Virus record (IMG/VR): IMGVR_UViG_3300042922_000295
Span: 1 to 64,000 of that record
Source: a virus
DNA: 64,000 nt
Strand: one strand, 5' to 3'
Made by a program: the position numbers and the translations under genes. The stretch's first letter is position 1; each line of letters starts with the position of its first letter. This document shows, piece by piece, positions 1 to 22,920 of this stretch. Under the pieces are notes generated by a model that worked only from the letters and a program-made list of their open reading frames with translations, was not told the origin of the DNA and did no database searches.

Positions 1-1
1 G

Positions 2-1856: not shown

Positions 1857-1864
1857 AAGCAGAG

Positions 1865-1900: not shown

Positions 1901-1906
1901 GTGCCC

Positions 1907-3808: not shown

Positions 3809-3810
3809 CG

Positions 3811-5750: not shown

Positions 5751-5847
5751 GAGCTCAGAGCCTATCACTCCGCGCCCATGGAACCTAGCCCCCGGCGCTA
5801 TCGGCATCCCTCAGGCACTCACGACAGAGGTTTACTGCAACGGCCGC

Positions 5848-6327
5848 TGCACTAAATGCTGTGAACCCGAACAAACGTCCCTCTCCAGGTTTTCCGCAAC
5901 GGCGTTGCACATAATGAGAGTGGGCGTCTAGACCCGAATCATGTACGTAAACGGACATCGTCTACGAAGTCGTGACATCTAGGGACGACCTGTACGGGGG
6001 TTCATGTTGCAGCAACAGATAGTGCAACACCCTCTGTTGCAGATGAAAAACGGCCCCTGACCTGCGGAAACACCATTTAGTGCAACAACTGCAACGCCCC
6101 CCCCTTACAAGCCCCCCCACACCCCACATCCCCAGCGACTGACGCTACCCGGAGCGCGGCCATGGGACGACCGTTGCAAGAATTCCCTGTTGCACTAAAT
6201 CTGGGGGGTCCCCAGCCCGGGGCTCAGGACCGTGTCCCTCCTACTACTACTACTACTACTACTATATATACAGTAAATAGGTTATAGGGGTATAACCCCT
6301 AGTCAGAGGGTGTTTTTTTAGTGCATC
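5848..6327. repeat. ATTTAGTGCAAC box cluster (six copies)
   Basis: Six matches to ATTTAGTGCAAC in both orientations: TGCACTAAAT 5848-5857, TTGCACATAAT 5905-5915, ATAGTGCAACA 6019-6029, ATTTAGTGCAACA 6075-6087, GTTGCACTAAAT 6189-6200, TTTAGTGCATC 6317-6327. A related GTTGCAGCAAC palindrome lies at 6005-6015. They flank the AT-rich tract; likely binding sites for a repressor or initiator. Confidence 0.65.
6241..6320. repeat. (CTA)8 and AT-rich tract, possible unwinding element
   Basis: Eight tandem CTA units (6241-6264) run into TATATACAGTAAATAG. A hairpin follows (TAGGGG 6285-6290, loop TATAA, CCCCTA 6296-6301), then a run of seven T at 6313-6319. Such a low-GC stretch is exceptional in this window and lies amid the ATTTAGTGCAAC boxes, as a duplex-unwinding element would. 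A promoter region is the alternative. Confidence 0.45.
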
Positions 6328-7176
6328 ACTTCCTGCTACGAACGTGTAACTGTGCGACAGTCGTTTTCAACTAATATTCTCGTCCTTGGGTGCGAAAGAG
6401 AGCAATGTCAGCGGGGTTGTGCGTAAGAATCATCGTTCTTAAGGGTAATCAGAAGACTTTTCCAAAGTTTTATGCGCGTCGAACGGGGCAAGAGAGCGCC
6501 GGGCAAAGGCGGGGTCTGGATTTTATTGCCGGGGGCAACAGTGTGCATTCCGTCGGGATAATTGCCGACGGCAACTATGTCGCCTTTGTTGCGCTAGGCA
6601 ATCATCAGAATGCGTTAGCGCAATGGGTCCGATAGTGCACACTATCGGCGCACCTCATTGTCATTGTTTGCATTCTCATTGTTTCGCGTGCATTAGGCGC
6701 CGACTATGGCGACGATTGCCTCACGCAACAGTCGTATCTATGCATTCATTGAACGTGCGCGTATTAGGTCCGGTAATGAGGCGAATCGAAATACGCGCAT
6801 CGATTGGCGCCTCACCCAATTCACAATGCACACCACGTATAGCACTGTTTCATCAGGCAACTACACACCCATTCCCACAGACGTTTCATCAGGCAACTAT
6901 GTACATTCACCATTCTGTTTAGGAAAGGCTAATGGTGCACACATAACAGACCATTGCCCATGACAACTGTCTATGCACTATGCACATGCACCATTCATGG
7001 TTACCCTACGCAACTACACTGTTGCATCAGGCAACTACCCTACGGGTGCATACCTATGCACACCATGCATACCTATGTGTGCCTCACGCAACAGTATGCA
7101 ACGCGTTGACTAGGCAATTCGCGTGTAACGGCCGAACAGACCTCACCCTAGGTAATGACACCCGGGACGCATGTAC

Positions 7177-7210
7177 GGGCGCCTACGGGGCGCCTAGGCA
7201 CGTCTACGCG
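7177..7210. repeat. dispersed GC-rich repeat, copy 1
   Basis: GGGCGCCTACGGGGCGCC followed by TAGGCACGTCTACGCG. The same combination recurs at 8859, 9051 and 12343, and in part at 8997 and 17339, always between genes. Confidence 0.6.
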
Positions 7211-7233
7211 TGTCCTATGGGTGCGACTACGCC

Positions 7234-7241
7234 TAGCGCTA
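7234..7241. promoter_or_regulatory. TAGCGCTA palindrome, site 1
   Basis: Perfect 8-bp palindrome within GCCTAGCGCTACGC. Eleven exact copies were seen in the window, eight of them between 7.2 and 9.6 kb. Confidence 0.5.
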
Positions 7242-7289
7242 CGCATGCATATGCATCCCACTAGATCGACTGTTGCCTAGGGCAACGGC

Positions 7290-7297
7290 TAGCGCTA
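7290..7297. promoter_or_regulatory. TAGCGCTA palindrome, site 2
   Basis: Directly beside the best TTGCC-TAG-GGCAA palindrome (7273-7285), 81 nt before the ATG at 7378. Confidence 0.55.
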
Positions 7298-7353
7298 GGT
7301 CACGACCGTTACCAAACCGTTATCGGAAAGAACGGTTTCGACTAGACACCACC

Positions 7354-7361
7354 TAGCGCTA
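7354..7361. promoter_or_regulatory. TAGCGCTA palindrome, site 3
   Basis: Inside the 12-bp palindrome CCTAGCGCTAGG, 16 nt before the ATG at 7378. Overlap with the leader of that gene suggests control of its expression. Confidence 0.55.
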
Positions 7362-7377
7362 GGCGTATGGTTGGGGC

Positions 7378-7848
7378 ATGACAACGAACCGGAACACCCG
7401 CCCCGCGCCCGACGCGGCGCCCGCGCCCCGCGTGCGACTCGCTACGGTCGCGACGGGCGCGCACGTCTACTACGCCACCGACGCAATCGACCACGTCGTG
7501 ACCGGGACCGTCGGCGACTCGTTCGGCATGGCCGAATTGGGCAACCGTGGTATCCGCATCCACGGTTGCGCATGCGGGACGACTCACAACGTGACCCGCT
7601 ACGCAATGGTCGTCGTCATCGACCCGTCGCCCGCGACGGTTGTCCCGGACACCCGTACGCGACGAGTCGCCTACACCATCGCGGACGTTGTTTCGTGGAT
7701 CAACAATGACGACGCGGACAATGACTATGCGGGACCGGGCGCGGCGCCCGCACCTAGCGCTACGTGCGAACACATGACGACCGTTTGCGACTCATGCGTT
7801 GACGAATGGTGCACCGACTACGCGATCACGTACATGCCGCACGCATAG
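7378..7848 (+). CDS. hypothetical protein, C-terminal CEH-C-C motif
   Basis: 156 residues. A Pro/Ala-rich N-terminus leads into a beta-rich middle (ATVATGAHVYYATDAIDHVVTG; HGCACGTTH). The C-terminus holds TCEHMTTVCDSCVDEW. The same C-terminal pattern, CEH-x5-C-x2-C-VD-W, occurs in the leftward gene at 9281-9553, so the two are paralogues and probably bind zinc. Glu is encoded only by GAA here, unlike the GAG-rich genes elsewhere. The site CCTAGCGCTA occurs inside the coding region (7753-7762). Function unknown. Confidence 0.65.
   Translation: MTTNRNTRPAPDAAPAPRVRLATVATGAHVYYATDAIDHVVTGTVGDSFGMAELGNRGIRIHGCACGTTHNVTRYAMVVVIDPSPATVVPDTRTRRVAYTIADVVSWINNDDADNDYAGPGAAPAPSATCEHMTTVCDSCVDEWCTDYAITYMPHA
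7755..7762. promoter_or_regulatory. TAGCGCTA palindrome, site 4 (intragenic)
   Basis: Within the 156-residue gene, inside CACCTAGCGCTACG. Confidence 0.4.
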
Positions 7849-7864
7849 TTCACCCGCTAGCACC

Positions 7865-7893
7865 TAGCGCTAGGGTGGCACATAGGCTAGACT
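7865..7893 (+). promoter_or_regulatory. TAGCGCTA site 5 with downstream -10-like TAGACT
   Basis: TAGCGCTA at 7865-7872 is followed 15 nt later by TAGACT (7888-7893), a good -10 hexamer. The palindrome lies near where a -35 would be. This would drive the gene at 7962. The same TAGACT appears upstream of the gene at 32363. Confidence 0.45.
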
Positions 7894-7936
7894 GGTCTAT
7901 GTACCGCCCGGGAACTAGGTCCCTAGTCACCCCACC

Positions 7937-7952
7937 GACCCCACATAGGGAG
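7937..7952 (+). promoter_or_regulatory. leader element GACCCCACATAGGGAG
   Basis: Copy of the recurrent GACCC[CG]ACA..GGGAG leader, ending 9 nt before ATG 7962; its 3' part is the ribosome-binding site. Confidence 0.6.
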
Positions 7953-7961
7953 ATGTTTCAA

Positions 7962-8624
7962 ATGGCACGCACGAACACCCGCACCGCGCCCGCTACGTCC
8001 GCCAAGTCGTCCGCCACGGTCGACCCGTGGGACGCCGCCGTGGACGCCTACCACGCCGCGTCGGGCGCCGAAAAGTCCCGCGTGCGTCGGGACGCCGACG
8101 CGTCGATGCGCGCCGCGCTCATCGCCGGTGACGCGTCGGGCGCCATGGCGTGGTTGGCCGCTACCGAAAAGATGGTGGCCAGCCGCCCGACGGCCGACGC
8201 GCCCGACTACGTCGACATCGTCGCCCGTCGCATCGTGACCCTTCGGGGCGCGGCCGAATCGATCCTCAACGGGTCGACCCGTCCGGCCGGTATCCCGGAC
8301 GACGTCGACCTGTCCGCCGTCGCGGCACGCGTCGCCACGATGTCCTACGACGACGTGTCGGCCGACGACATGTCCGCCGTCGCGTCCGCAAAGGTGGCGC
8401 GGTCGGCCGTCCGACGCGACATCGCGGACGTCGTGCGCCGTGCGTTCGACGTCACCGGAAAGAACCGGTTGACGGTCGCGGCCATCGCGCGGCACGGTGC
8501 CACCGACGACTACACGCCTTCGGGCGGTGCGGTCGCGGCGCGCATGTTCGGTGGTCGCGGTGTCGACGGATTCACCGCCCACGAGGCGACGGCCGACGCG
8601 CCCCGCACGATCACCCGCGACTAG
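7962..8624 (+). CDS. putative DNA-binding protein, paralogue of 14160 gene
   Basis: 220 residues from ATG 7962. It aligns along its whole length with the 320-residue product at 14160. Landmarks are AAVDAYHAASGAEKSRVRRD, then APDYVDIVARRI..RGAAESIL, and a C-terminal block RRDIADVVRRAF...LTVAAIARH...PSGGAVAARMF. That last block looks like a helix-turn-helix (recognition helix around SGGAVAARMF), so DNA binding is inferred. No named family recognised. Three of four Glu codons are GAA, unlike its paralogue. It lies amid the palindrome arrays, making it the best candidate to bind them. Confidence 0.7.
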   Translation: MARTNTRTAPATSAKSSATVDPWDAAVDAYHAASGAEKSRVRRDADASMRAALIAGDASGAMAWLAATEKMVASRPTADAPDYVDIVARRIVTLRGAAESILNGSTRPAGIPDDVDLSAVAARVATMSYDDVSADDMSAVASAKVARSAVRRDIADVVRRAFDVTGKNRLTVAAIARHGATDDYTPSGGAVAARMFGGRGVDGFTAHEATADAPRTITRD

Positions 8625-8637
8625 TCACTAGTCGCCC

Positions 8638-8675
8638 AAAAGGCGCCCGTCCCCTAATCGGGACGGGCGCCTTTT
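8638..8675. terminator. Rho-independent terminator
   Basis: Perfect stem AAAAGGCGCCCGTCCC (8638-8653) / GGGACGGGCGCCTTTT (8660-8675) with a 6-nt loop and a T run, starting 13 nt after the stop at 8624. The A/T ends allow function in both directions. Confidence 0.93.
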
Positions 8676-8690
8676 CGTGTCCCTAGATAG

Positions 8691-8975
8691 TTGCCCCGGG
8701 CGACAGTCGCCTAGCGCAACTACGAGCTACGCGGACGGTTGCCAGGGGCAACTATCCCGGTTGCGTCGGGCGACTGTTGCCTAGGGCAACGAACGCGTGT
8801 GTGCCGTTCTGACGGCCGTACACGCGTCGACCCTACCCACCTACCCACCTAGCGCTACGCGCCCCGTACGCGGGCGCCTAGGCACGTCTACGGCGAGATT
8901 GTGCCTAGGCGCCCCGCGCCCGTAGCGGTCGGGCGACTATGCGCCGACTACCGGCACGACTGTTGCCTAGGTCAA
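8691..8975. repeat. TTGCC-N3-GGCAA palindrome array, right cluster
   Basis: Six copies: 8691-8703, 8707-8719, 8739-8751, 8761-8773, 8777-8789 and 8963-8975. The first five are packed into 99 nt, 16-32 nt apart centre to centre. The 8777 copy is a perfect TTGCC-TAG-GGCAA identical to the one at 7273. Two copies have GGCGA instead of GGCAA. Confidence 0.75.
8850..8892. repeat. TAGCGCTA site 6 and GC-rich repeat copy 2
   Basis: TAGCGCTA at 8850-8857 followed by GCGCCCCGTACGCGGGCGCC and TAGGCACGTCTACG (8859-8892), the same module as at 7177-7210. Confidence 0.55.
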
Positions 8976-8996
8976 CCAACGCGTGTGCGCCCCGTA

Positions 8997-9080
8997 GGCG
9001 CCCGACTAGGCGCCCCGGGTCACCTAGTACCCACCTAGCGCTAGTCGCGTCCCTACGGGGCGCCTAGACACGTCTCACGC
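8997..9080. repeat. GC-rich repeats, copies 3-4, with TAGCGCTA site 7
   Basis: GCGCCCCGTAGGCGCCCG at about 8997, TAGCGCTA at 9036-9043, and CCCTACGGGGCGCC with TAGACACGTCTCACGC at 9051-9080. Confidence 0.55.
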
Positions 9081-9213
9081 GTAGTCGCGCCCCGTGCGCT
9101 AGTCGCCCGCTAGTCGACCGCCCGCGCCCCGCCCGTAGTCACCCGCGCCCCGTGCCACGGGCGCCCCGCGCCGACGATCCTTCGGGCGCATCGGCACCCG
9201 TGCGCGTAGTCAC

Positions 9214-9262
9214 CAAAAAGGGCGCCCCACACACGAAGTGACATCTCGTGTGTGGGGCGCCC
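9214..9262 (-). terminator. Rho-independent terminator of leftward gene
   Basis: Perfect 17-bp stem GGGCGCCCCACACACGA (9220-9236) / TCGTGTGTGGGGCGCCC (9246-9262). An A5 run on the + strand (9215-9219) gives U5 for leftward transcripts. It lies 18 nt after the leftward stop at 9281. Confidence 0.9.
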
Positions 9263-9280
9263 GTGCGCGCTAGTTATGCG

Positions 9281-9553
9281 CTAGTCGCGTGCCTCGTCGT
9301 GCGCGTCGTCGGACTCGTCCACCATGTCCGCGTAGTGAGCTCGCGTCGCCGTGATCGTCACCTCGTAGTCGGCCGACCATGAGTCCACGCATTCCACGCA
9401 CACAGTCACCGTGTGCTCGCACGTCGTCGGCGCGATGAGAGTTGTGTTGAAAGGTGCGGCCGGTTCGTTCGTCCAGGTGACCCCACCATCGCGTGACACC
9501 CGGTTGTCGCGGATGATGAGTCGCACGTTGTCGCCCGTGTTGAAGGTCATCAT
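9281..9553 (-). CDS. hypothetical protein, CEH-C-C motif paralogue
   Basis: 90 residues from ATG 9553 (ATG 9550 also possible). The open frame continues to 9703, but the upstream part is AT-rich with poor codon use. The C-terminal half carries TTCEHTVTVCVECVDSW, matching TCEHMTTVCDSCVDEW of the 7378-7848 product, followed by an acidic tail. It is the only leftward gene in the island and points toward the palindrome clusters. Likely zinc-binding; function unknown. Confidence 0.55.
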   Translation of the reverse strand: MMTFNTGDNVRLIIRDNRVSRDGGVTWTNEPAAPFNTTLIAPTTCEHTVTVCVECVDSWSADYEVTITATRAHYADMVDESDDAHDEARD

Positions 9554-9588
9554 GAGTCCAATCAATGTGTCGGGTGCGCTAGATTCCC

Positions 9589-9596
9589 TAGCGCTA
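9589..9596. promoter_or_regulatory. TAGCGCTA palindrome, site 8
   Basis: CCTAGCGCTATGAATATC lies 36 nt before the leftward start at 9553, where a promoter or operator would be expected. The adjacent AT-rich segment 9597-9700 is otherwise empty. Confidence 0.5.
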
Positions 9597-9753
9597 TGAA
9601 TATCGTACCACAAATGGTCACACTTTGTATTCTGGGTAATGCTGGGAATCCCAGAGAAATGCAGCATTTCAAGTGAAATGAGATATGCCTTTGTATGTGG
9701 CATCCGACTATGAATTGCCTGTGGAAATGGTCACCTGACGAACAAAGGTTTGA

Positions 9754-9759
9754 TAGAAT
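9754..9759 (+). promoter_or_regulatory. -10-like TAGAAT
   Basis: TTTGATAGAATGG gives a good -10 hexamer 65 nt before the ATG at 9825; no clear -35 hexamer. A short GCCCG-CAA-CGGGC hairpin follows at 9768-9780. Confidence 0.45.
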
Positions 9760-9804
9760 GGTCTCGTGCCCGCAACGGGCGCGGATTCGGCAGTCGGACA
9801 CTTT

Positions 9805-9820
9805 GACCCCATACGGGAGG
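9805..9820 (+). promoter_or_regulatory. leader element GACCCCATACGGGAGG
   Basis: Recurrent leader ending 4 nt before ATG 9825. Confidence 0.65.
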
Positions 9821-9824
9821 CATC

Positions 9825-10445
9825 ATGAAGATCAGGGCTTTCAACCTGGTTCCGGGCGCAGTCATCTATGGCCCGAACGAGGAGCCGCGAGTCGTCCACT
9901 CGGTTCACCGCAACGTGGACAACGAGTCGGTCACCCTGTGGTTCGTCGGCATCCTGCGGGCGGCACAGTTCGACTTCAACGAGGACCTGTCCCTCATGGG
10001 CCTGACGCCGCACTACGACGACTGGACGCACGTCGAGACCGACTTCGGCACCGACGCGGGCGACGCCTACGCGAAGGCGCAGATGGCTATGCACAACCCT
10101 GCAGACGACGACGAGGGCGTCCCGTTCGCGAAGTACACGTCAGACGAGCTGTGGGGCCAGGTCCAGTCGGACTACGAGGCGCTCGGTCGGGACGGCGTGG
10201 AGATGCTGCTGGACGAGATCCTGTCCCGCAACCCGCAGTACTTCGACAGGACGGTCCCGGCCGGGTCGCTCGAAGTCGGGACGAAGTTCCGGTTCGCCGA
10301 CAAGCGCGAGTGGTACTACACCGGTAGCAACCAGGACTACACAGTCAAGGAGCACTTCGGCGGTCGTACCACCTTCGACACCCAGACCGGCCAGGGCTCA
10401 GTCCCCAGCGAGTTCCTCGTCCGCATCGTCTCCACGGAGGTCTGA
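9825..10445 (+). CDS. hypothetical protein
   Basis: 206 residues, acidic, no membrane segment. It starts KIRAFNLVPGAVIYGPNEEPRVVH, a beta-rich opening. The last 60 residues contain LEVGTKFRFADKREWYYTG, which resembles the opening pattern (GTKFR/GAVI), so there may be two copies of a small beta-barrel-like unit. First gene of a rightward series after the island. No recognised family. Confidence 0.7.
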   Translation: MKIRAFNLVPGAVIYGPNEEPRVVHSVHRNVDNESVTLWFVGILRAAQFDFNEDLSLMGLTPHYDDWTHVETDFGTDAGDAYAKAQMAMHNPADDDEGVPFAKYTSDELWGQVQSDYEALGRDGVEMLLDEILSRNPQYFDRTVPAGSLEVGTKFRFADKREWYYTGSNQDYTVKEHFGGRTTFDTQTGQGSVPSEFLVRIVSTEV

Positions 10446-10448
10446 ACC

Positions 10449-10916
10449 GTGACGATCCACCAGTTCACCTCGAACGACGCACCGCACCTCGGAGTCATGC
10501 GCTTCTTCGGGCAGCACGTCGGTGTGCAGATTCGCCTGAAGCCGTACGACCGTGCACTGATGGTCCGTATCGACGACGAGGAGGGCACGGCAAGCCTCCT
10601 GGTCGAGACGTACATCGTCCGCGAAGGGGCGCGCAAGACGACGTTCCTCAAGCGCGGGAAGCGCCTGTACGGATTCAAGATGACGGCCGGTGGAGGCTAC
10701 CGTCCAGTCGGTGAGCCTATGGTGATCTGGGATGACGACTTCACCATCACCGAAGAGGTCCCCTGGGGATCGTCGCAGACGACCCGGGAGCGCAACGAGA
10801 AGCGTGAGTGGGAGGGTATGGCGTACCGAGTCGGCGCGCCCCGCGCCCCCATGGACAACGCTGCACGTGTGGCTGAAGGTCACACCACCGACGCAATGGC
10901 ACGTCACTGGCGCTAG
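10449..10916 (+). CDS. hypothetical protein
   Basis: 155 residues from GTG 10449, 3 nt after the previous stop, with GGAGG ending 9 nt upstream. Mixed alpha/beta sequence (IHQFTSNDAPHLGVMRFFGQHVG; ETYIVREGARKTTFLKRGKRLYGFK), basic in the middle, C-terminal helix rich in Arg/Glu. No known domain seen. Confidence 0.7.
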   Translation: MTIHQFTSNDAPHLGVMRFFGQHVGVQIRLKPYDRALMVRIDDEEGTASLLVETYIVREGARKTTFLKRGKRLYGFKMTAGGGYRPVGEPMVIWDDDFTITEEVPWGSSQTTRERNEKREWEGMAYRVGAPRAPMDNAARVAEGHTTDAMARHWR

Positions 10917-10931
10917 ACGCGCCGACTAGCC

Positions 10932-10959
10932 TAGTGCTAGTCAGACCCCGAGAGGGAGG
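10932..10959 (+). promoter_or_regulatory. TAGTGCTA variant and leader element
   Basis: CTAGTGCTAG (10931-10940), a one-base variant of TAGCGCTA, precedes the leader GACCCCGAGAGGGAGG (10944-10959), which ends 9 nt before ATG 10969. Confidence 0.5.
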
Positions 10960-10968
10960 CTGGACAAG

Positions 10969-11151
10969 ATGTTCAAGATTCGTCGCCGCTCGTACATCAG
11001 GTGCTCATGCGGCAAGAAGTTCTACATCAGTGACACCTGCCCGATGGCCGGAGCACAGTCGCTCGCCATCCTGCACGTCGTCGCCTGGCACGCGTGGCAG
11101 CCGACCGAGGCACCCGCGATTCTGACCACGAAGGAGTTTCACCGTGCGTGA
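10969..11151 (+). CDS. small zinc-binding-like protein
   Basis: 60 residues: FKIRRRSYIRCSCGKKFYISDTCPMAG is a compact Cys motif (C-x-C...C) followed by a helix with two His (LHVVAWHAW), consistent with a C2H2-like zinc site. Overlaps the next gene by 8 nt. Confidence 0.65.
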   Translation: MFKIRRRSYIRCSCGKKFYISDTCPMAGAQSLAILHVVAWHAWQPTEAPAILTTKEFHRA

Positions 11152-11581
11152 CATCACCGAGCCGGACTGGCCGAACCTGCCCCACGCCGTCAAGATCGAG
11201 TCCTACTACGCTCACACCGGGACGAACAAGGCGATCGAGAAGGTGTTCGACACCGAGGCCGAGGCCATCGCCTTCGCCCGGCTCGTCACGCCCGAGGAGC
11301 TGCGCCCGCAGGCCGAGGCGTGCCGCTACGACGAGGTCATGTGGCAGTCGTGCCACATGGAGTGGTGCGTGTCGATCAGCCTGCACCTGCCCAGCATCGT
11401 GGACGAGCCGCGACGGGTCGACCGCAAGTCGCTCGGATACCGGATCGGCTACTTCCTCGGTGAGCGGTGCGCCTACGTCGCCGCATGGATCGGTGACAAG
11501 TTGGCGCCCGAGCTGCCCGCCGGTCACCCGGAGTTCAACTCGCGCCTCGACATCCGCGACGCCGAGGCACACGGCAAGTAG
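11144..11581 (+). CDS. hypothetical protein
   Basis: 145 residues from GTG 11144, overlapping the previous stop. It has an ESYYAHTGTNKAIEKVFDTEAEAIAFA opening and a helical C-terminus (LGYRIGYFLGERCAYVAAWIG). Single Cys residues only. No recognised family; followed by a strong hairpin. Confidence 0.65.
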   Translation: MRDITEPDWPNLPHAVKIESYYAHTGTNKAIEKVFDTEAEAIAFARLVTPEELRPQAEACRYDEVMWQSCHMEWCVSISLHLPSIVDEPRRVDRKSLGYRIGYFLGERCAYVAAWIGDKLAPELPAGHPEFNSRLDIRDAEAHGK

Positions 11582-11588
11582 TCACGCC

Positions 11589-11624
11589 AGGTCCGCCACC
11601 AGTCACATGATTGGTGGCGGGCCT
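11589..11624 (+). terminator. terminator-like hairpin
   Basis: AGGTCCGCCACCA (11589-11601) pairs with TGGTGGCGGGCCT (11612-11624), 13 bp with one G-T pair, 10-nt loop; no U tract follows. Confidence 0.65.
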
Positions 11625-11644
11625 AGTCTGACTAACAGGCTACC

Positions 11645-11661
11645 GACCCCGACATGGGAGG
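11645..11661 (+). promoter_or_regulatory. leader element GACCCCGACATGGGAGG
   Basis: Recurrent leader ending 6 nt before ATG 11668. Confidence 0.65.
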
Positions 11662-11667
11662 CTTCAA

Positions 11668-12036
11668 ATGAGCAACACGTACGCGTCACAGCAGGCTGCG
11701 CGCAACATCGGCGGTGTCATCGGCCGAGCGCTGGTCCGAGCGCTCCGCATCCAGTCCGAGATCAAGGGCGACAACACGTCCGCCGTCCTCGCCACCATGC
11801 GCAGGCGTGACGTCGAGCGCGGTCGAGTCGAGGGCGCCCGCACGGTCGCGGTCTGCCTCGCGTACCAGTTCGGGCTCGACGATGGCGCCTTCGACGCCGA
11901 CGAGTTCTACCAGCTCGTCCTCGACGAGGCGTACCGAGCCTACCGGGGAGAGTGGGACAAGGCGCCGGAGGGGACCACCAACTTCTACCGCACCTGGGTG
12001 TTCGACCAGCCCTGGGCCAGCTTCGGCAACCTCTGA
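11668..12036 (+). CDS. hypothetical protein
   Basis: 122 residues, helical and basic at the start (ASQQAARNIGGVIGRALVRALR), ending in an aromatic-rich stretch (FYRTWVFDQPWASFG). No motif recognised. Separated from the next gene by 19 nt. Confidence 0.65.
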   Translation: MSNTYASQQAARNIGGVIGRALVRALRIQSEIKGDNTSAVLATMRRRDVERGRVEGARTVAVCLAYQFGLDDGAFDADEFYQLVLDEAYRAYRGEWDKAPEGTTNFYRTWVFDQPWASFGNL

Positions 12037-12055
12037 TCGGGAAGGCTAACTCATC

Positions 12056-12346
12056 ATGAAGGCTCACATGCGCCTCACCGACCGCGAGCGCCAGTACCCG
12101 TTCCCCGAGCTCATCCAGGAGTGCCACGTCCCGGCCGGAGGCTACGACCAGATCAAGGCCAACTTCCCGGAGGTCAGGTCGACACCGCACGACCTGGGTA
12201 ACTTCTTCAGCTCGGCGCGCCGCTACCGAGCGATGTTCGAGTCCATCAACCGCGCCGCGAAGTTGGAGCGCGAGTGGAACGAGCGTCACGCGCACGACAT
12301 GACACCCGGGGCGCGCACGCGGGGCGCCCTCATCGAGGTTGTCTAG
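12056..12346 (+). CDS. hypothetical protein
   Basis: 96 residues starting MKAHMRLTDRERQYPFPELI, charged and helical, no Cys pairs and no membrane segment. The terminal codons run into the GC-rich repeat at 12343. Function unknown. Confidence 0.6.
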   Translation: MKAHMRLTDRERQYPFPELIQECHVPAGGYDQIKANFPEVRSTPHDLGNFFSSARRYRAMFESINRAAKLEREWNERHAHDMTPGARTRGALIEVV

Positions 12347-12376
12347 GCGCCCCGTAGGCGCCCGCTAGACACGTCC
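12343..12376. repeat. dispersed GC-rich repeat, copy 5
   Basis: CTAGGCGCCCCGTAGGCGCC with CTAGACACGTCC after it; the same words as in the 7-9 kb island. Confidence 0.55.
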
Positions 12377-12429
12377 GGGTGCCACACACCCTGGCGACCT
12401 AGGCGCCCCGCACGCGGGCGCACACACAA

Positions 12430-12460
12430 CGGCCCGACTCGCACACCGCGAGTCGGGCCG
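12430..12460 (+). terminator. hairpin terminator
   Basis: CGGCCCGACTCGC (12430-12442) / GCGAGTCGGGCCG (12448-12460), 13 bp, 5-nt loop, followed by CTCGTGCTG. A similar TCGTGCTG tail follows the hairpins at 15176 and 23742. Confidence 0.75.
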
Positions 12461-12483
12461 CTCGTGCTGTACGCACAGTCCAT

Positions 12484-12501
12484 GACCCAGATCACTGGAG
12501 G
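12484..12501 (+). promoter_or_regulatory. leader-like element before 12506
   Basis: GACCCAGATCACTGGAGG, a weaker match to the recurrent leader, ending 4 nt before ATG 12506. Confidence 0.5.
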
Positions 12502-12505
12502 AACA

Positions 12506-13315
12506 ATGGGAAAGAAGTCACGAACCTGGGACGGCTTCTGGTCGGCCATCGAGTCGTACGTGATGGGCGCGACCATGCAGGGCAAGACGCTCTCCATGCA
12601 GCGCGCCAGGAACTTCTGGGACGACCTGGCCGACGAGCAGAAGCGTGACGCTGTCGAGGCGCTGCGCTACAAGAAGCAGAACAACAGTCAGTACCCGTCC
12701 GCGTACACCGAGATCTGGGTGGCCCTCTCGGGTTACGACCCCGAGCCGTTCAAGGACCCCGAGCTGCAGACCGGCCTGCCGACGCTCACGCACCCGGCCG
12801 ACTTCCCTCCCGGGGAGCGCTACCGGATCACGCTCACGAAGGTGAACACGAGCTGGCACTACGTGGTCGACAACCACAAGGGTCACGCCATCGCAGCCGA
12901 CAACCAGCCGACGGCGAGCGCGGCCGTCGTCGCCTCTTCGCAGGCGATGTTCGCGGACATCAACAGCCACACGACACCGCCTCGCAAGGTCTACAACTTC
13001 GTCCTCTACGACCCCGCCGGGCAGATCATCGGCAAGTCGCACGCGGTCGACATCGACGACCCGCAGACGATGATGTCCAACGTCATCAAGTACCTCGGTA
13101 AGCGCTACAACGAGGGGCCTGGCCAGGAGATCATCGAGGCGGGCGCCGGACTCAAGTTCAGGGAGTTCGACGCCGCCAACGACGAGGAGGGGGCCATCAT
13201 CCACGCCATCGAGATCGAACAGGACACCGTCCAGTTCGACAACACCTTCAACGAGTACATCTGGCCCGCCGAATCCAGCACCCGGCGCCAGGTGTTCCAG
13301 TTCACCCTGCTGTGA
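12506..13315 (+). CDS. hypothetical protein
   Basis: 269 residues from ATG 12506, chosen because GGAGG ends 4 nt upstream; an earlier GTG/ATG would read into the terminator region. Begins GKKSRTWDGFWSAIESYVMGA. Middle part is beta-rich (YRITLTKVNTSWHYVVDNHKG; RKVYNFVLYDPAGQIIGKSH). No signal peptide, no known domain. Confidence 0.7.
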   Translation: MGKKSRTWDGFWSAIESYVMGATMQGKTLSMQRARNFWDDLADEQKRDAVEALRYKKQNNSQYPSAYTEIWVALSGYDPEPFKDPELQTGLPTLTHPADFPPGERYRITLTKVNTSWHYVVDNHKGHAIAADNQPTASAAVVASSQAMFADINSHTTPPRKVYNFVLYDPAGQIIGKSHAVDIDDPQTMMSNVIKYLGKRYNEGPGQEIIEAGAGLKFREFDAANDEEGAIIHAIEIEQDTVQFDNTFNEYIWPAESSTRRQVFQFTLL

Positions 13316-13322
13316 GGTCACC

Positions 13323-13670
13323 ATGAGCATCACCTACGCCATTCCCAACGAGCCGGGCAACAACGACACGGTCGTTCGCACCGAAGTGAAGATCTGGTGC
13401 TCAACCGGGCACCTGGTCACCCAGCGTTCAGTGCGCACCATCGCTGAGTACTTCGCGGAGACCGGGGATGCCATGGACACGCTTGCCAGGTGCAAGCCTG
13501 TCGAGCTGGACGCGGTCATCTTCCGGTGCCTCACCATCATGCGAGGTCCGATGGTCGGCGTCGACGAGCAGATGCGCCTCATGGCACTGCTCGCATGGAC
13601 GGCGAACCGGTATGCACGCGAGGCGCAGTTGTTCGAGCTGCGCAGACGTGCTGCCATGAAGCCGCACTAG
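13323..13670 (+). CDS. hypothetical protein
   Basis: 115 residues, 7 nt after the previous gene with GAGGTCACC before the ATG. Contains KIWCSTGHLVTQRSVRTIAEYF and a C-terminal helix rich in Arg (ANRYAREAQLFELRRRAAMK). No recognised family. Confidence 0.65.
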   Translation: MSITYAIPNEPGNNDTVVRTEVKIWCSTGHLVTQRSVRTIAEYFAETGDAMDTLARCKPVELDAVIFRCLTIMRGPMVGVDEQMRLMALLAWTANRYAREAQLFELRRRAAMKPH

Positions 13671-13762
13671 ACCTGGAAAAAACGCTGACGTTCCAGGTGG
13701 AAACACTCACGGCTACGTGGTAAGCTCGACGTAGTCGAAACGGCACCATTGCGCCCACCGAC

Positions 13763-13801
13763 GACTGACCCGCCCGGGTCAGTCGAGACCCGTCACGGAG
13801 G
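13763..13801 (+). promoter_or_regulatory. hairpin and leader element before 13808
   Basis: GACTGACCC-GCCC-GGGTCAGTC, a 9-bp inverted repeat (13763-13784), is followed by GACCCGTCACGGAGG (13787-13801), 6 nt before ATG 13808. Confidence 0.55.
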
Positions 13802-13807
13802 AAAGAC

Positions 13808-13957
13808 ATGTACGTCAGCAACGAGGTCATGGAGTTCGGAGTCGCCACCTTCTCGGTCATCGGCCTCCTGTGGTCGGCCAAGGTGGTCGCGGTGTACGTC
13901 ACCAACAAGGTCACCGACACGATCGACTGGTTCCGGGCTCGTCGCACGGCGCAGTAG
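13808..13957 (+). CDS. 49-residue membrane protein
   Basis: Short gene: ATG 13808 preceded by GGAGG, stop TAG 13955-13957. The product starts MYVSNEVMEFGVATFSVIGL, has one hydrophobic helix at about 9-34, and ends in a basic tail (WFRARRTAQ). Probably a single-pass membrane peptide. The good ribosome site and following hairpin support it as real. Confidence 0.65.
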   Translation: MYVSNEVMEFGVATFSVIGLLWSAKVVAVYVTNKVTDTIDWFRARRTAQ

Positions 13958-13968
13958 TTCCCACAGTG

Positions 13969-14007
13969 GCGCCCCGGTCAGGTGAGTTACAACCCTGACC
14001 GGGGCGC
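13969..14007. terminator. terminator-like hairpin
   Basis: Perfect 14-bp stem GCGCCCCGGTCAGG (13969-13982) / CCTGACCGGGGCGC (13994-14007), 11-nt loop, no U tract. Confidence 0.65.
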
Positions 14008-14026
14008 ACTGCAACCGATAACGAAT

Positions 14027-14043
14027 CACCCTGATTCAGGGTG
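14027..14043. promoter_or_regulatory. inverted repeat CACCCT-N5-AGGGTG
   Basis: Perfect 6-bp arms around GATTC, 10 nt before a TTGACT hexamer (14053-14058). It may be an operator for the gene at 14160; no convincing -10 was found at the usual spacing. Confidence 0.35.
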
Positions 14044-14133
14044 GGATACGTATTGACTCCGCCTAGGTTGCATGACACGCTGAGTTTCATGCCACCCAGG
14101 GACGGTCAATCCGACAACCGTTCCCCACGACCG

Positions 14134-14150
14134 GACCGACACACAGGGAG
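14134..14150 (+). promoter_or_regulatory. leader element GACCGACACACAGGGAG
   Basis: Recurrent leader ending 9 nt before ATG 14160. Confidence 0.55.
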
Positions 14151-14159
14151 TTGAGCATC

Positions 14160-15122
14160 ATGGCACGACGCAAGGCAACCGAGACCCCGGAGACGACCGA
14201 GGTCCAGAGCACGGAGGAGAACACCGTGAGCACCGACACCACCACCGAGGCGCCCGTCGAGGCCGTCGCGGACGCGCCGGAGACGGACGCGCCCGAGGCG
14301 CCCGAGTACGACCTCACCGACTTCCAGGCCGCGCTGAAGCAGGCGCTGGAGGTCCGCGACGAGACGACCGGCGTCGTCCCCGAGGCGAACGTCAGCGAGG
14401 TCGTCGTCGCGTACCGCCAGATCAAGGGCGCGGCGGGCAAGCGCGCCGCCAAGGAGATCGTCGACGAGGCGATGAAGGAGGCGATGCGCGAGGCGAACCT
14501 GTCCGTCGCCCGTGCCAACCTCTCCATCAGCGAGAAGCTCGTCGCCGGTCCGTCCGGCGGCGGCTCGTCCAAGTCGTCCACGCCCCGCGAGCCGGTCGAC
14601 CCGACCGAGGCGTTCGTCGAGCTCGCGGCCGGTCTGCGGCTCGCCACGACGCTCGTCGGCAACACCGCGCCCGAGGGTGTCGCCGAGGACTGGCAGGAGA
14701 AGGCGAAGGAGAAGGTCGACGACGCCTTCGGCGACGCCGAGACGTTCCTCGCCTGGCTCCAGAGCGAGGACGAGGGCAAGGGCGACGAGCCCGAGGTCCC
14801 CGCCTTCGTGAAGGCGGCGGTCAAGCTCGCCCTCGGCAAGTCGGCCCGCGTGGGCACGGCTCGGGCGCGTGCCACGGGCGGCGGCTACTCGGGCGAGCGC
14901 CGCGACGTCGCGAAGCACATCCAGTCGGCCTTCGCCGACGTGGCCGAGGGCACGTTCCTCGCGGTCGCGGAGATCAGGAACCACAAGTCGGAGGAGTACG
15001 GCAACGACGCCCCGAGCGCCGGTGCCATCTCCGCCCGCCTGTTCCCCCGCAACGGCAAGGTCACGATCGAGGGCGTCGAGCCCGCGACGCAGAACGGCAA
15101 GAAGGGCGCCGTCAAGGCCTGA
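14160..15122 (+). CDS. putative DNA-binding protein, paralogue of 7962 gene
   Basis: 320 residues from ATG 14160 (GGGAG 9 nt upstream; a TTG at 14151 is less likely). The first 60 residues are Thr/Glu/Ala-rich. The rest aligns with the 220-residue product at 7962: EVVVAYRQIKGAAGKRAAKE, DPTEAFVELAAGLRLATTL, and C-terminal RRDVAKHIQSAF...LAVAEIRNH...PSAGAISARLF. This copy has two insertions, a Ser/Gly linker (GPSGGGSSKSS) and an acidic stretch (SEDEGKGDEPE). Glu is almost always GAG. The conserved end resembles a helix-turn-helix. Monocistronic, with its own terminator, hence probably abundant. Confidence 0.75.
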   Translation: MARRKATETPETTEVQSTEENTVSTDTTTEAPVEAVADAPETDAPEAPEYDLTDFQAALKQALEVRDETTGVVPEANVSEVVVAYRQIKGAAGKRAAKEIVDEAMKEAMREANLSVARANLSISEKLVAGPSGGGSSKSSTPREPVDPTEAFVELAAGLRLATTLVGNTAPEGVAEDWQEKAKEKVDDAFGDAETFLAWLQSEDEGKGDEPEVPAFVKAAVKLALGKSARVGTARARATGGGYSGERRDVAKHIQSAFADVAEGTFLAVAEIRNHKSEEYGNDAPSAGAISARLFPRNGKVTIEGVEPATQNGKKGAVKA

Positions 15123-17737: not shown

Positions 17738-19282
17738 GTGACCAGCACCAAGCCGTCTTGCGAGACGTGTCCCGCCTTCATCAAGGCGGAGGATGTACCG
17801 GGCAAGCTCCGCCGCGCAACTGGCTCAGCCATGTGCGGACGGTTCTTGATCCCCCTTGACCGGCCGACACAGGCCGAGCCCAAGGTGCTGAAGAAGGTGC
17901 ACGAGCACTTCGCATCGACCTGCGGGTCGTACGGCGAGCCGATGCCACCGACGCCCGAGGAGGCGCGACTCACCGTCGCGTTCCCCGACCCCGACCGACA
18001 GGTCAACACGCAGGGCACACCCAACTCCGCTGCGGTGCAGTCATGCAGCGGCTGTGCGCACTTCGTGCGAGACGACGCCGTCGCCCGCGAGTTCGGCTGG
18101 GTGACCGGGATGTGCTCGGCCAAGGGCAAGCTCGTCCTCACCAACCGCCAGACGTACGAGGCCCGCGACTGCGACTTCCGTACGTTCGGGGCACCTCGGA
18201 CCGAGACAGACGGCATCACCCTGTTCCCCGAGTACGCCGATGACTTCGGAGCGTACGACCCGGTGAAGGACTTCATCAACAACCTGTCCTCCGGTCCGGT
18301 CGACCCGCTGTCCTACGAGAGCGACGCGCCGGTCACCGAAGCCGAGCAGGCCGAGGGTGTGCAGGCGTGGCGCAAGATCGAGGACCCCGAGACCGGGAAC
18401 AGCACCCTGCTGCCGATCTTCCGGCCGTCGTACTTCGACGAGGACATGCAGGCGCTCATCCCCAAGACGGGCGACCCCGAGCACCCCGAGAACTACGTCG
18501 ACCACTTCCGAGGTGTGTACCTCGCTGCCGTGTGCTGGCAGGAGCTGGACGAGACGCCTGCCCTGTGGGGACAGGCCGGGACCGGCAAGACGGAGTTGTT
18601 CCGTCACCTCGCCTGGCTCATGCAGCTTCCGTTCCGCCGCATCAGCATCACAGGGTCGACGGAGCTGGACGACCTCGCCGGGAAGATGCGGTTCAACAAG
18701 GAGCAGGGTACGTACTTCCAGTACGGCCGTCTCCCGATGGCATGGTCGCACCCGGGTGTCATCTGCATCGACGAGCCGAACACCGGCGCGCCTGACGTGT
18801 GGCAGTTCATCCGCCCGCTGACGGACAACAGCAAGCAGCTCGTCCTCGACATGAACAAGGGCGAGGTCATCAAGCGTCACGACAGCGCGTACCTCGGCAT
18901 GGCGATGAACCCAAGCTGGGACGTCAAGAACGTCGGCACCATCGAGATCGGTGACGCAGACGCTAACCGACTGTTCCACGTCTACGTCGACCTGCCGCCG
19001 GAGAAGTTGGAACGCGAGATCATCAAGGCTCGCGTGAAGCTCGACGGCTGGGAGCTGTCCGGTCCTCAGATGGACATGCTCATGGGCGTGGCCAGGGACC
19101 TGCGCGCCCTCGTGGTCGACGGTTCGCTGCCGATCTCGTGGGCCATCCGCCCCCAGATCAAGGTCGCCCGCGCCCTGCGCTGGTTCGACACGGTCACGGC
19201 GTACAGGCGTGCCGTTGCTGACTACCTGGAGCCTGCCACCCAGGACATCATCCTGGACGTCGTGCGCTCGCACGCGTCCTGA
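17738..19282 (+). CDS. MoxR-type AAA+ ATPase with two Cys4 modules
   Basis: 514 residues from GTG 17738. The N-terminus has two tandem similar Cys modules, C8-x2-C11...C33...C62 and C103-x2-C106...C126...C145. Each has a C-x2-C-x-F pair followed by a G-x(1-3)-C motif, suggesting an internal duplication that binds Zn or Fe-S. Then comes an AAA+ core of the MoxR/CbbQ type: Walker A GQAGTGKTE (278-286), ITGSTELDDLAGK (304-316) and Walker B VICIDEPN (341-348). MoxR ATPases typically act on a von Willebrand A partner; here that partner is encoded at 19987. The Cys-rich head is not part of usual MoxR proteins. Confidence 0.85.
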   Translation: MTSTKPSCETCPAFIKAEDVPGKLRRATGSAMCGRFLIPLDRPTQAEPKVLKKVHEHFASTCGSYGEPMPPTPEEARLTVAFPDPDRQVNTQGTPNSAAVQSCSGCAHFVRDDAVAREFGWVTGMCSAKGKLVLTNRQTYEARDCDFRTFGAPRTETDGITLFPEYADDFGAYDPVKDFINNLSSGPVDPLSYESDAPVTEAEQAEGVQAWRKIEDPETGNSTLLPIFRPSYFDEDMQALIPKTGDPEHPENYVDHFRGVYLAAVCWQELDETPALWGQAGTGKTELFRHLAWLMQLPFRRISITGSTELDDLAGKMRFNKEQGTYFQYGRLPMAWSHPGVICIDEPNTGAPDVWQFIRPLTDNSKQLVLDMNKGEVIKRHDSAYLGMAMNPSWDVKNVGTIEIGDADANRLFHVYVDLPPEKLEREIIKARVKLDGWELSGPQMDMLMGVARDLRALVVDGSLPISWAIRPQIKVARALRWFDTVTAYRRAVADYLEPATQDIILDVVRSHAS

Positions 19283-19810: not shown

Positions 19811-19990
19811 ATGGCTACCTGGGTGGTGGCGCGCACCGCAAGGAAGCGCCCCACGCTCATGCACAGCCTGGACCCTGACCGGGTCGGGTACACTCTGTGT
19901 GGCGTCGATGTGTCGGCATGGTCGCGTGCGTACTTCAACGCACCCATCCCGCAGATCGAGTGCCTCCGATGCAAGGGAGTTCGCAGGTGA
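19811..19990 (+). CDS. 59-residue Cys protein
   Basis: ATG 19811, 3 nt after the previous stop; its TGA overlaps the next gene's GTG (GTGA at 19987-19990). The product opens ATWVVARTARKRPTLMHSLD and contains RVGYTLCGVDVSAWSRAYF, then PQIECLRCKGVRR. It thus has one Cys followed by a C-terminal CxxC, resembling small zinc proteins of other actinophages. The tight overlaps on both sides support it. Confidence 0.65.
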   Translation: MATWVVARTARKRPTLMHSLDPDRVGYTLCGVDVSAWSRAYFNAPIPQIECLRCKGVRR

Positions 19991-22920
19991 CCAACACGCT
20001 TCCGTTCGAGGGTTCCGCCGAGGAGCGCACGGAGAAGGCGCAGGCTGCGGTCAAGGTGTTCCGCAGCATGCTACCCAGCCTCAACGGCTTCGTGCGTGCC
20101 CTCACGGGGAACCCTCGTGCCCGCATCGAGGTGCACCCTACCTCGAACGGTGGGACCGATGGGCAGACGATCATGTACCGTCCGCCCATCGCCCTGGGTG
20201 ACAAGCGCCCGCACGACAAGGGGCTGTGCGACAAGCGGGACGACGCGGGGCAGCAGCGCTGCCCCGCGTGTCACCTGCGCGAGAGCATCCTCACGACGCT
20301 CTATCACGAGATGGCGCACATCGCCTTCAACACCTTCGCTCCAGTCAGCCCCGACCACGCGGCGGACTTCACCCGGCGAGCAGCCGAGGAGTGGGGATCG
20401 AAGTACGCCAAGGCAATCGTGGAGAGGCTCAACGCCTTGCCCGAGCGCCAGCGCAACAACTACCTCACGCTCGCCAGCATGCTCAGCCCCTTTCTCCCGC
20501 TCCTGCTGAACGGACTGGAGGACGCCCGGGTCAACGCTCGCATGTTCGCGGCTCGCCCCGGCACCCGCGCCATGTTCGAGGCGAACGTGCGCGAGGTGAT
20601 GGCGAACGGCTTCGAGACGCATGAGGGTACGGTGCGGTGGAACGAGCGCCCGCTCAACGCACAGATCACCATTGGCCTGTACGCGGTCGCCAGCGGGTAC
20701 GACTACACCGGCTGGTTCCACGAGAAGGTCGAGCACGACCTCAAGGATGCCAAGCTCGTCGGCATCTGCGAGCAGGTGGCCGGGTCCGAGGGTGCCGGTC
20801 AGGTGTACAACCTCGCCTTCAAGGCGCTGGCGCGACTGCGCGAACTCGGATACTGCCTGTCCGAGCGTGACCCCGACGTGGAGGAAGAAGAAGATGAGCA
20901 GCCCGACGACGAGTCAGTACCTGAGCCGGATAGCGGAGAGGGTGAGCAGCCGGACGGGGATGCCTCCGAACCCGAGCACGCTGACAGCGATCAGCAGGGC
21001 GAGGGTGAGGATGAACAACCGGAAGCTGAAGAAGCTGACGGGACGTCCGAACCTGACGGCAGCGCCGACGACAGCGACGCACACGCCGACCCAGATCAGC
21101 AGGGTTCTGACGAGCCAGACTCCGGCGAGGCGCCGTCCGACGAGCCTGCATCCGACGAAGCGGACGATGGTTCCGAGAGCGACGCTGGTGACCCCGGTGA
21201 CGGGGATTCGGGAGCCGGAGCTGACGACGATGGTGGTCCTGCAGACTCCGAGGATGCTGGTGACGATGCCGACTCTGAGGGCGATGACGGAGGAGCACCT
21301 GAAGGGGAAGGTGCTGACGGGCGACCTGACGAAGCTGGCGGCAGTGACGGAGTGGACGATCAGGACTCCGAAGCAGGCGATGACTCGTCAGGCCAGGATT
21401 CGGGCGAAGCGGATGCTTCGAACGAGCAGCAGGATGGGGTAGACTCCGATGGCGAAGAGAGTGCTAACGGTGGGGCGCCTGACTCCGAAGGAGAAGAGGG
21501 TGCTGATCAGCCCGAGGCAGGGGGAGAGCTGGGAACTGGTGATCGCTCCGCCGACGCGCCAGTGGCTGACAACGATGAGCCTCTGGACGGGGACGGAGCC
21601 GACGACGCTGGCGAGGGTCAGCCCGAAGGAGACGTGACCGATGGAGCAGCCCTGGGTGAAGCTGGAAGTCCAGGAGGGGCCGACGAAGGTGTATCGGGTG
21701 ACGTGCCTCCTGGGGACAGTGCAGACGTCGGTGAGGTTCGAGACGACGAGACGCCTGCCGCCGAGGCTGGCGAAGGCGACGATGGACGTCACGAGGTCAG
21801 CGACGACGGCGATCAACCGTCTGACAGCGATGGGGCGCTCGACGTCGGACCGGCGAAGAAGGCCGGATGGGCAGAGCCCCTCCCCGAGTACGGCGAAGCC
21901 CGAGATGTCGAGGGAGACCTCGACGCCGCCATGCACCACGACGGTGACCAGGTAGCACCTTCGGGAGACATCGTCTACGACACGCAGGACGACGCCGAGG
22001 AGGTTGCCCGGGAGATCATCCAGGGCATCTACTTCGAGACGGGGTCACTCAACGTCGCGGGCGTGGTCGAGCATCGTCGTGACGACGAGCGCACTGGCGC
22101 ACACTGGAGCGCGGCCAAGAGGTTCAACGCCTTCGACAGGCGCCAGCGTGGCATCGACGGTGACTTCACCGTGCCGGAGTCCGTGCTCGGTGCCGCCCTG
22201 CAGCGCATGCGTGTCGTGTTCTCCGAGAACCGTCGAGCCGTCCACACGCGCAACCTCAAGGCCGGGAAGGTCAACGCACGGTCGCTCGGCAAGCGTGCGT
22301 GGGGTGACGACGAGCGGCTGTTCCGCCGCAAGCAGCAGCCGGGCAAGCGTGACTACTCGGTCGTCATCGGTATGGACATCAGCGGCTCGACGGCCGGGCA
22401 GGAGATCGCCATTGAGAAGCGGGCCGTCATGGCGCAGGCTGAGCTGCTCAACCGTATGGGTATCAGGTTCGCCATCGTGGCGCACTCGACCCAGCATGGT
22501 GGCGTACCAGGCATGACCGGCGGCATCACGCTGAGCATGTACCACGTCAAGGAGTTCGACCAGCCGTGGACGGACAAGACGCGGGACAACCTGTCGTCGT
22601 TGGCATCTGGCAACGGCAACCTCGACGGTCACAGCATGGAGTTCTACCGCAAGATGCTGGACCGAGAGAACACCACCGACCGCATCATCATGTACTACAC
22701 TGACGGCGCAATGCCTGCCTCCAACTACGACGAGGAACTTGAAATCCTGCGTCGGGAGCTCCAGGTGTGCGCCCAGAAACGGTACACCGTGATGGGAGTC
22801 GGCATCCGTACAGACTCGCCCACGGAGCACGGACTCGACACGGTCGTGGTGGAAGAAGACTCCGATATCGTCAACGTCGTGAAGTTCCTGGAGCGGCGGC
22901 TAGAGCGTACGGTACGGTAG
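19987..22920 (+). CDS. HExxH metalloprotease-like / vWA fusion protein
   Basis: 977 residues from GTG 19987, with GGGAG 7 nt upstream. The N-terminal third has C81...C92-x2-C95, then LYHEMAHIAF (HExxH at 107-111) and, 67 residues on, NGLEDARVN (E178), the layout of a zinc metallopeptidase of the type fused to CobT-like vWA domains. Residues about 296-640 are a low-complexity acidic linker of Asp, Glu, Gly, Ser, Ala and Gln. The C-terminal vWA domain has the MIDAS motif D797-I-S-G-S and a later YYTDG. By analogy with CobS/CobT and RavA/ViaA, it should pair with the MoxR ATPase at 17738. Substrate unknown. Confidence 0.85.
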   Translation: MTNTLPFEGSAEERTEKAQAAVKVFRSMLPSLNGFVRALTGNPRARIEVHPTSNGGTDGQTIMYRPPIALGDKRPHDKGLCDKRDDAGQQRCPACHLRESILTTLYHEMAHIAFNTFAPVSPDHAADFTRRAAEEWGSKYAKAIVERLNALPERQRNNYLTLASMLSPFLPLLLNGLEDARVNARMFAARPGTRAMFEANVREVMANGFETHEGTVRWNERPLNAQITIGLYAVASGYDYTGWFHEKVEHDLKDAKLVGICEQVAGSEGAGQVYNLAFKALARLRELGYCLSERDPDVEEEEDEQPDDESVPEPDSGEGEQPDGDASEPEHADSDQQGEGEDEQPEAEEADGTSEPDGSADDSDAHADPDQQGSDEPDSGEAPSDEPASDEADDGSESDAGDPGDGDSGAGADDDGGPADSEDAGDDADSEGDDGGAPEGEGADGRPDEAGGSDGVDDQDSEAGDDSSGQDSGEADASNEQQDGVDSDGEESANGGAPDSEGEEGADQPEAGGELGTGDRSADAPVADNDEPLDGDGADDAGEGQPEGDVTDGAALGEAGSPGGADEGVSGDVPPGDSADVGEVRDDETPAAEAGEGDDGRHEVSDDGDQPSDSDGALDVGPAKKAGWAEPLPEYGEARDVEGDLDAAMHHDGDQVAPSGDIVYDTQDDAEEVAREIIQGIYFETGSLNVAGVVEHRRDDERTGAHWSAAKRFNAFDRRQRGIDGDFTVPESVLGAALQRMRVVFSENRRAVHTRNLKAGKVNARSLGKRAWGDDERLFRRKQQPGKRDYSVVIGMDISGSTAGQEIAIEKRAVMAQAELLNRMGIRFAIVAHSTQHGGVPGMTGGITLSMYHVKEFDQPWTDKTRDNLSSLASGNGNLDGHSMEFYRKMLDRENTTDRIIMYYTDGAMPASNYDEELEILRRELQVCAQKRYTVMGVGIRTDSPTEHGLDTVVVEEDSDIVNVVKFLERRLERTVR

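Follow-up and report, generated by a model that had tools for sequence, protein, structure and literature searches.

A pair of phage paralogues with a predicted winged-helix domain shared with GmrSD restriction enzymes, one of them encoded in a palindrome-rich island

An uncultured phage, IMG/VR record IMGVR_UViG_3300042922_000295, encodes two paralogous proteins of the family phrog_6708, here called P0001 and P0002. Both genes lie in the window, the first 64,000 nucleotides of the 84.5-kb record. Computation gave their paralogy, a predicted winged-helix fold for their C-terminal domain, recurrent pairing of a short and a long copy in related genomes, the location of the P0001 gene in a palindrome-enriched island, a palindromic site shared with a relative, and the fusion of the same domain to GmrSD nucleases. 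Tentatively, we read P0001 as a repressor-like protein that would bind the island palindromes and control its own operon.

Paralogy, predicted fold and a domain shared with restriction enzymes

P0001 and P0002 are paralogues of one phage family. Compared directly by BLASTP they gave 35.4 bits (E 4e-7, 27% identity), and a profile of eight long orthologues aligned with P0001 residues 23-207 over 183 columns (hhalign probability 95.3%, E 2e-8). Matches to phrog_6708 across the whole record were confined to the two loci, weaker for P0001 (E 9e-7) and stronger for P0002 (E 1e-72). P0002 follows the family profile over its length, residues 8-319 falling on 13-318 of 319 (E 1.4e-70); P0001 matches it with its C-terminal part alone, residues 117-198 on 208-294 (E 5e-6). 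A first-pass annotation made from the sequence had placed both open reading frames (ORFs) exactly and called their products paralogous, which these comparisons bear out. It also had them aligning over the full length of the shorter protein. That is nearly right, but residues 1-22 and the last ~13 of P0001 are unaligned, and an internal block of the middle region and a basic linker, both present in P0002, are missing from it. Such a linker (RPRK, GRPAG) precedes the C-terminal domain in several long copies. P0002 as a whole has an acidic pI of 4.8, and its N-terminal tail is acidic as well.

In the predicted architecture of the family, the N-terminal region is made of helices and the C-terminal domain is a winged helix. 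AlphaFold, supplied with alignments of window proteins and contig proteins, modelled the C-terminal 70-75 residues of both proteins as helix-strand-helix-helix-hairpin, with pLDDT about or above 90. The winged-helix topology H1-S1-H2-H3-S2-wing-S3 is present in both predicted models; in P0001 the helices span residues 154-165, 172-178 and 188-196 and the strands 169-171, 204-207 and 216-219. Three conserved motifs had been credited with helix-turn-helix character at first reading, and all fall on this frame: RRD[IV]A...AF is helix 1, LTV..I is strand 1/helix 2, and PS.GA[IV].AR[LM]F is helix 3. Neighbours of P0001 149-220 found with VIA-align (Z 5-7) were mostly winged helices, including Zur, MarR, FoxO, linker histone and the pNOB8 centromere-binding protein, so that confident models and fold neighbours together support the suggested character. 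Neither protein falls in a named family of Pfam or NCBIfam. A profile match to an unrelated function, which the annotation had said would count against DNA binding, was found for neither protein in Pfam, NCBIfam or PHROG. The PDB searched by sequence gave no match, Foldseek of the P0001 model on the PDB returned nothing below E 0.001, and a structure search of BFVD placed just TIN2 and GMA3 proteins below 0.001. The N-terminal helices of P0002 also gave a CID/VHS-like match (Z 10), which was not used as evidence, because helical bundles attain such scores by chance.

Cellular proteins carry the same domain. In a genome-collection scan, P0002 residues 242-319 matched the C-terminus of an Oerskovia GmrSD enzyme at 44% identity. 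Genome searches added two Pfam-confirmed GmrSD fusions (G117 and G520); in G535 and G555 the domain closes long ORFs whose sequence is of this kind too, and on plasmids of Rhodococcus qingshengii and Rhodococcus sp. it forms part of DUF262 proteins, with 54% identity. The C-terminal ~77 residues of GmrSD enzymes from Oerskovia, other actinomycetes and Rhodococcus plasmids are thus homologous to the P0002 domain at 44-54% identity, and the full-length cellular carriers looked at closely were all GmrSD-type fusions. Rhodococcus is the host genus of phages Perlina and ReqiDocB7. P0001 and P0002 themselves have no Pfam match to DUF262 or DUF1524.

A recurrent second copy in uncultured relatives

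Orthologues of P0002 occur in 98 records of Gordonia, Tsukamurella and Rhodococcus phages, at a single place per record, and no function is known for any that was found. In the cultured phages inspected, genes for an AAA-ATPase and a CobT-like protein lie downstream of them, the order also present here. P0001 alone as query found zero relatives among 50,697 phage records, and a single-protein scan of viral contigs gave none. The short copies of two uncultured relatives, G010 and G001, matched cultured phages no more than weakly and recovered only themselves from the viral contigs. A family scan of the viral contigs yielded 15 loci; using the uncultured group's long copies as queries brought three more. 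G001, G002, G003, G010, G609, G611 and this phage each have a second, short copy at a distance of 4-9 kb upstream from the long one, which makes seven of the eight uncultured genomes (six of the seven others); in G611 it is the winged-helix domain alone. One family copy was found in G610, a 33-kb fragment, and one in each of the cultured phages searched, with Perlina adding a 28-residue fragment match (E 0.002).

Branch lengths in the family tree are 1.6-3.0 for the short copies, greater than for the long ones (median of all 0.4); P0002 is the conserved long copy and P0001 a fast-evolving short one. In the same tree, which carries a long-branch warning, P0001 and the short copies of G010 and G002 form one clade (support 96/95) and P0001 and the G010 copy are sisters (93/65 at their fork); a single clade of all short copies is possible (support 50/73). 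The first-pass annotation had offered separate acquisition or long divergence and had proposed a comparison of synteny. That comparison shows the long copy to be syntenic in cultured phages and, in uncultured relatives, the pair to recur in one order. Separate acquisition is less likely because the same-order pair, 4-9 kb apart, recurs so widely, and acquisition of the short copy from outside was set aside on the same ground. Divergence fares better, in the form of a probable duplication followed by vertical inheritance with fast change in the short copy. The short copy may have been gained in the uncultured group or lost in cultured phages.

The palindrome-rich island and the possible role of P0001

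The island (Table 1) separates leftward genes (ORFs to 5807) from a rightward block that begins near 9825. P0001 does lie within a palindrome array, as first described: the island holds eight TTGC-N5-GCAA palindromes against 0.03 in dinucleotide shuffles, four copies of CTAGCGCTAG against 0, and seven of TAGCGCTA against 0.03. These include eight of the nine TTGC-N5-GCAA palindromes of the genome and all four of its CTAGCGCTAG copies. The base dialect is extreme, with CTAG seen 74 times where the rest of the genome predicts 3.8, CTGC 0 against 38 and GAGC 4 against 40, and it continues inside the coding parts of ORF 7378 and P0001. The earlier remark that the two paralogues differ in codon dialect is upheld by their glutamate codons (GAA 3/GAG 1 in P0001, GAG 38/38 in P0002) and by CTB trinucleotides (CTC, CTG or CTT, both strands), at 18 per kb in P0001 versus 106 per kb in P0002. 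Throughout the island A after CT is far commoner than elsewhere, and CTGC, CTCC, CAGC and CGAG are nearly missing, coding sequence included.

The ATG of ORF 7378 lies 7 bp downstream of the promoter-like TAGACA-17-TATGGT site; its product has no family match. This ORF and another on the opposite strand (9281-9703) flank P0001 and have in common the motif C-E-H-x-x-T-V-C-x-x-C-V-D-x-W, which is underlain by 78-bp inverted-repeat arms (7762-7839/9347-9424). The motif suggests a pair of small zinc-binding paralogues.

Table 1. Positions in the window of the paralogues, the island elements and the syntenic marker genes
Feature	Position	Strand	Remarks
Short paralogue P0001	7962..8624	+	220 aa; ORF call, BLASTP, phrog_6708, profile alignment
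P0001 predicted winged-helix domain, residues 150-220	8409..8621	+	AlphaFold pLDDT 89-98; VIA-align mostly winged helices
Long paralogue P0002	14160..15122	+	320 aa; phrog_6708 orthologue; gene order matches cultured phages
P0002 predicted winged-helix domain, residues 245-320	14892..15119	+	AlphaFold; 54% identity to Rhodococcus plasmid DUF262 protein end
Palindrome-rich control island	6400..9300		Own base dialect
TTGC-N5-GCAA palindromes	6526..7285		Starts 6526, 6562, 6589, 6716, 7022, 7273
TTGC-N5-GCAA palindromes	8739..8789		Starts 8739, 8777
CTAGCGCTAG palindrome	7289..7298		Adjoins GTTGCCTAGGGCAAC
Promoter-like TAGACA-17-TATGGT	7343..7371	+	Spacer CCACCTAGCGCTAGGCG; consensus match only
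CTAGCGCTAG palindrome	7353..7362		Within TAGACA-17-TATGGT spacer
CTAGCGCTAG palindrome	7864..7873		Start 98 bp upstream of P0001 ATG
TAGACT, possible -10	7888-7893		Between 7864 CTAGCGCTAG and P0001
CTAGCGCTAG palindrome	9035..9044		
ORF 7378	7378..7848	+	156 aa; island dialect; upstream of P0001 on same strand
Inverted repeat AAAAGGCGCCCGTCCC/GGGACGGGCGCCTTTT, terminator-like	8638..8675	+	Perfect 16-bp; after P0001
Terminator-like hairpin	9220..9262	-	18 pairs
Most A+T-rich 100-bp stretch of genome	6221..6380		TACTACTACTATATATAC tract
AAA-ATPase, phrog_5424	17738..19282	+	Syntenic marker
CobT-like protein with VWA domain, phrog_5298	19897..22920	+	Syntenic marker; start may lie further in

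Several relatives have repeat-bearing islands too. A search of twelve genomes for CTAGCGCTAG found the four copies here, one in G010 and none in the other ten. The G010 copy precedes the short gene, that of the closest short relative of P0001, by 81 bp and is inside promoter-like TTGACA-18-CATTCT hexamers. Other palindromes stand before the short genes of G001 and G003, and they belong to types that recur in the array of the genome concerned; the island of G001 holds 11 copies of a GTTCGATT/AATCGAAC palindrome (0.1 in shuffles) and that of G003 nine of TTGC-N5-GCAA. Gordonia phage Woes has seven copies of TAGTTGC...CAACTA, and TIN2 a direct-repeat array in the matching place. Upstream of the long genes the DNA is plain and promoter-like, and its palindromes are all short. 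Palindromes of another type, CATTCT...AGAATG, overlap TTGACA-type promoters before several small genes in ReqiDocB7 (4700-7123) and Perlina (7329-10916), looking like operators of a regulator. Woes also has, at 1643-2810, a repeated AACACCGAAAGGGTTGC-like sequence right before start codons; it is seen in TIN2 too and resembles the start-associated sequences known from cluster K mycobacteriophages.

From this material we infer dimerization, palindrome binding and repression by P0001. The protein would most likely be a sequence-specific, probably dimeric DNA-binding protein that recognizes the island palindromes, CTAGCGCTAG in this phage; it would repress or time its own operon (ORF 7378 and P0001) and early promoters nearby. 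That the domain is also the C-terminal module of GmrSD nucleases, which act on DNA, speaks for such a role. If P0001 binds DNA, repression is to be preferred because a palindrome lies between promoter-like -35/-10 hexamers in two genomes. The first-pass annotation had called both paralogues prime candidates to bind the island repeats, and location, the shared CTAGCGCTAG and the palindromes upstream of short genes are consistent with this, as an association of protein and site.

Several observations weigh against a repressor. The VIA-align scores, under 8, are modest, and some of the winged-helix neighbours listed do not bind DNA; ESCRT-II and cullin are among them, and winged helices also mediate protein contacts. 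The winged-helix domain of P0001 has a net charge of +4, but those of the other short copies range from -3 to +2, three being net acidic (G010 -3, G002 -3, G001 -1). Woes has GTTGC-type palindromes with the long copy only, and so palindromes of this class may have no tie to the short protein, while neither TTGC-N5-GCAA nor CTAGCGCTAG was found in the G609 and G611 loci that were read. Related phages have been reported as virulent (PMC4563357), and a lysogeny repressor is therefore not expected.

Replication or partition offers another explanation, with the island as the origin or partition site and P0001, perhaps together with P0002, as the iteron- or centromere-binding protein. We consider this possible but unlikely. 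The most A+T-rich 100-bp windows of the genome are at the island edges (6221-6361 and 9541-9661), as for an unwinding region next to the repeats of an origin, a TACTACTATATATA-like tract also stands beside the islands of G003, G010 and G001, a DUF3987 helicase-like gene (41-1498) is nearby and a primase-like ORF lies at about 79.4 kb of the record; the TIN2 repeat array and the pNOB8 neighbour fit this reading too. GC skew, however, does not turn at the island, having its minimum near 20 kb and its maximum near 79 kb, and the palindromes are irregularly spaced over 2.5 kb. In the subset of genes that was scanned, no ParA-type partner turned up, the nearest ATPase found being of the AAA_5 type, and island-bearing cultured phages do without the short protein. 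It is improbable, too, that the winged helix serves protein contacts, P0002 being associated with the virion or its assembly and P0001 being its variant. Both genes belong to the non-structural arm, close to genes of replication type, the fusion to DNA nucleases points to DNA, and the linker before the domain is basic in several long copies; in favour of protein contacts, the TIN4 orthologue is annotated 'putative structural protein' (the basis of the label was not found), P0002 and its N-terminal tail are acidic, and the winged helices of ESCRT and cullin do not bind DNA.

An arms race would tie the phage proteins to the enzymes: GmrSD would find phage DNA via the shared module, and the phage proteins would protect the phage by occupying the sites or binding the enzyme. 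The identity between the P0002 domain and GmrSD C-termini, including those on plasmids of the phage-host genus Rhodococcus, agrees with this, as do the uniformly GmrSD-type carriers, and the fast divergence of the short copy would fit a conflict. Yet restriction of these phages by GmrSD is itself conjectural, the domain could be a reusable DNA-binding part, and the island palindromes are not conserved across phages; we regard such a conflict as improbable as well. More doubtful still is a version in which a domain akin to the phage's own control-region protein guides the nuclease onto phage DNA and the phage shields itself by filling the sites, driving the fast divergence of the short copy and its palindromes.

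Other features of the record and comparison with known systems

The record ends overlap by 3831 bp (window 1-3831 and record 80667-84497), which implies a unit of about 80.7 kb. Window 2000-3831 is identical in the two ends but 1-2000 only about 72-99% alike, and two strain variants of the helicase region may thus be present. An SNF2-type helicase gene lies at window 36099-37577 (PF00176, 3e-41).

For about a hundred sequenced actinophages, an unnamed protein now gains a predicted fold and a testable job. A phrog_6708-type protein is linked to a palindrome-rich region that was called unusual in 2015 without a function, and GmrSD restriction enzymes are shown to bear a homologous domain. Should this domain read specific DNA, one could measure the recognition site of phage protein and restriction enzymes alike.

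Within phrog_6708, a family of unknown function in Gordonia, Tsukamurella and Rhodococcus phages, P0002 resembles the cultured members end to end and in gene order; P0001 differs from them, one per genome, as an extra, shorter copy. The single-chain Type IV GmrSD enzymes (DUF262-DUF1524) share the C-terminal ~77 residues at up to 54% identity, whereas the phage proteins are without a nuclease or NTPase domain. In a passage of the GmrSD survey, the added domains named are DUF4268, DUF4357 and DNA_binding_1 (PMC4619093), and the present C-terminal add-on is not among them. Unusual non-coding DNA with inverted repeats was described in 2015 for GordTnk2, GTE7 and ReqiDocB7 (PMC4563357). It occupies the same general place, near the right genome end, on a kilobase scale and with many inverted repeats (PMC4563357), but genes lie in the island described here, among them one for a paralogue of the conserved protein nearby, and its base dialect is strong. 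A regulatory parallel is the repressor-stoperator system of cluster A actinobacteriophages, which likewise pairs many short sites per genome with a DNA-binding regulator, here a proposed one. Cluster A stoperators are asymmetric 13-14-bp sites across the genome (PMC13313380, PMC5559632), whereas the sites here are palindromic and clustered in one 2.9-kb island.

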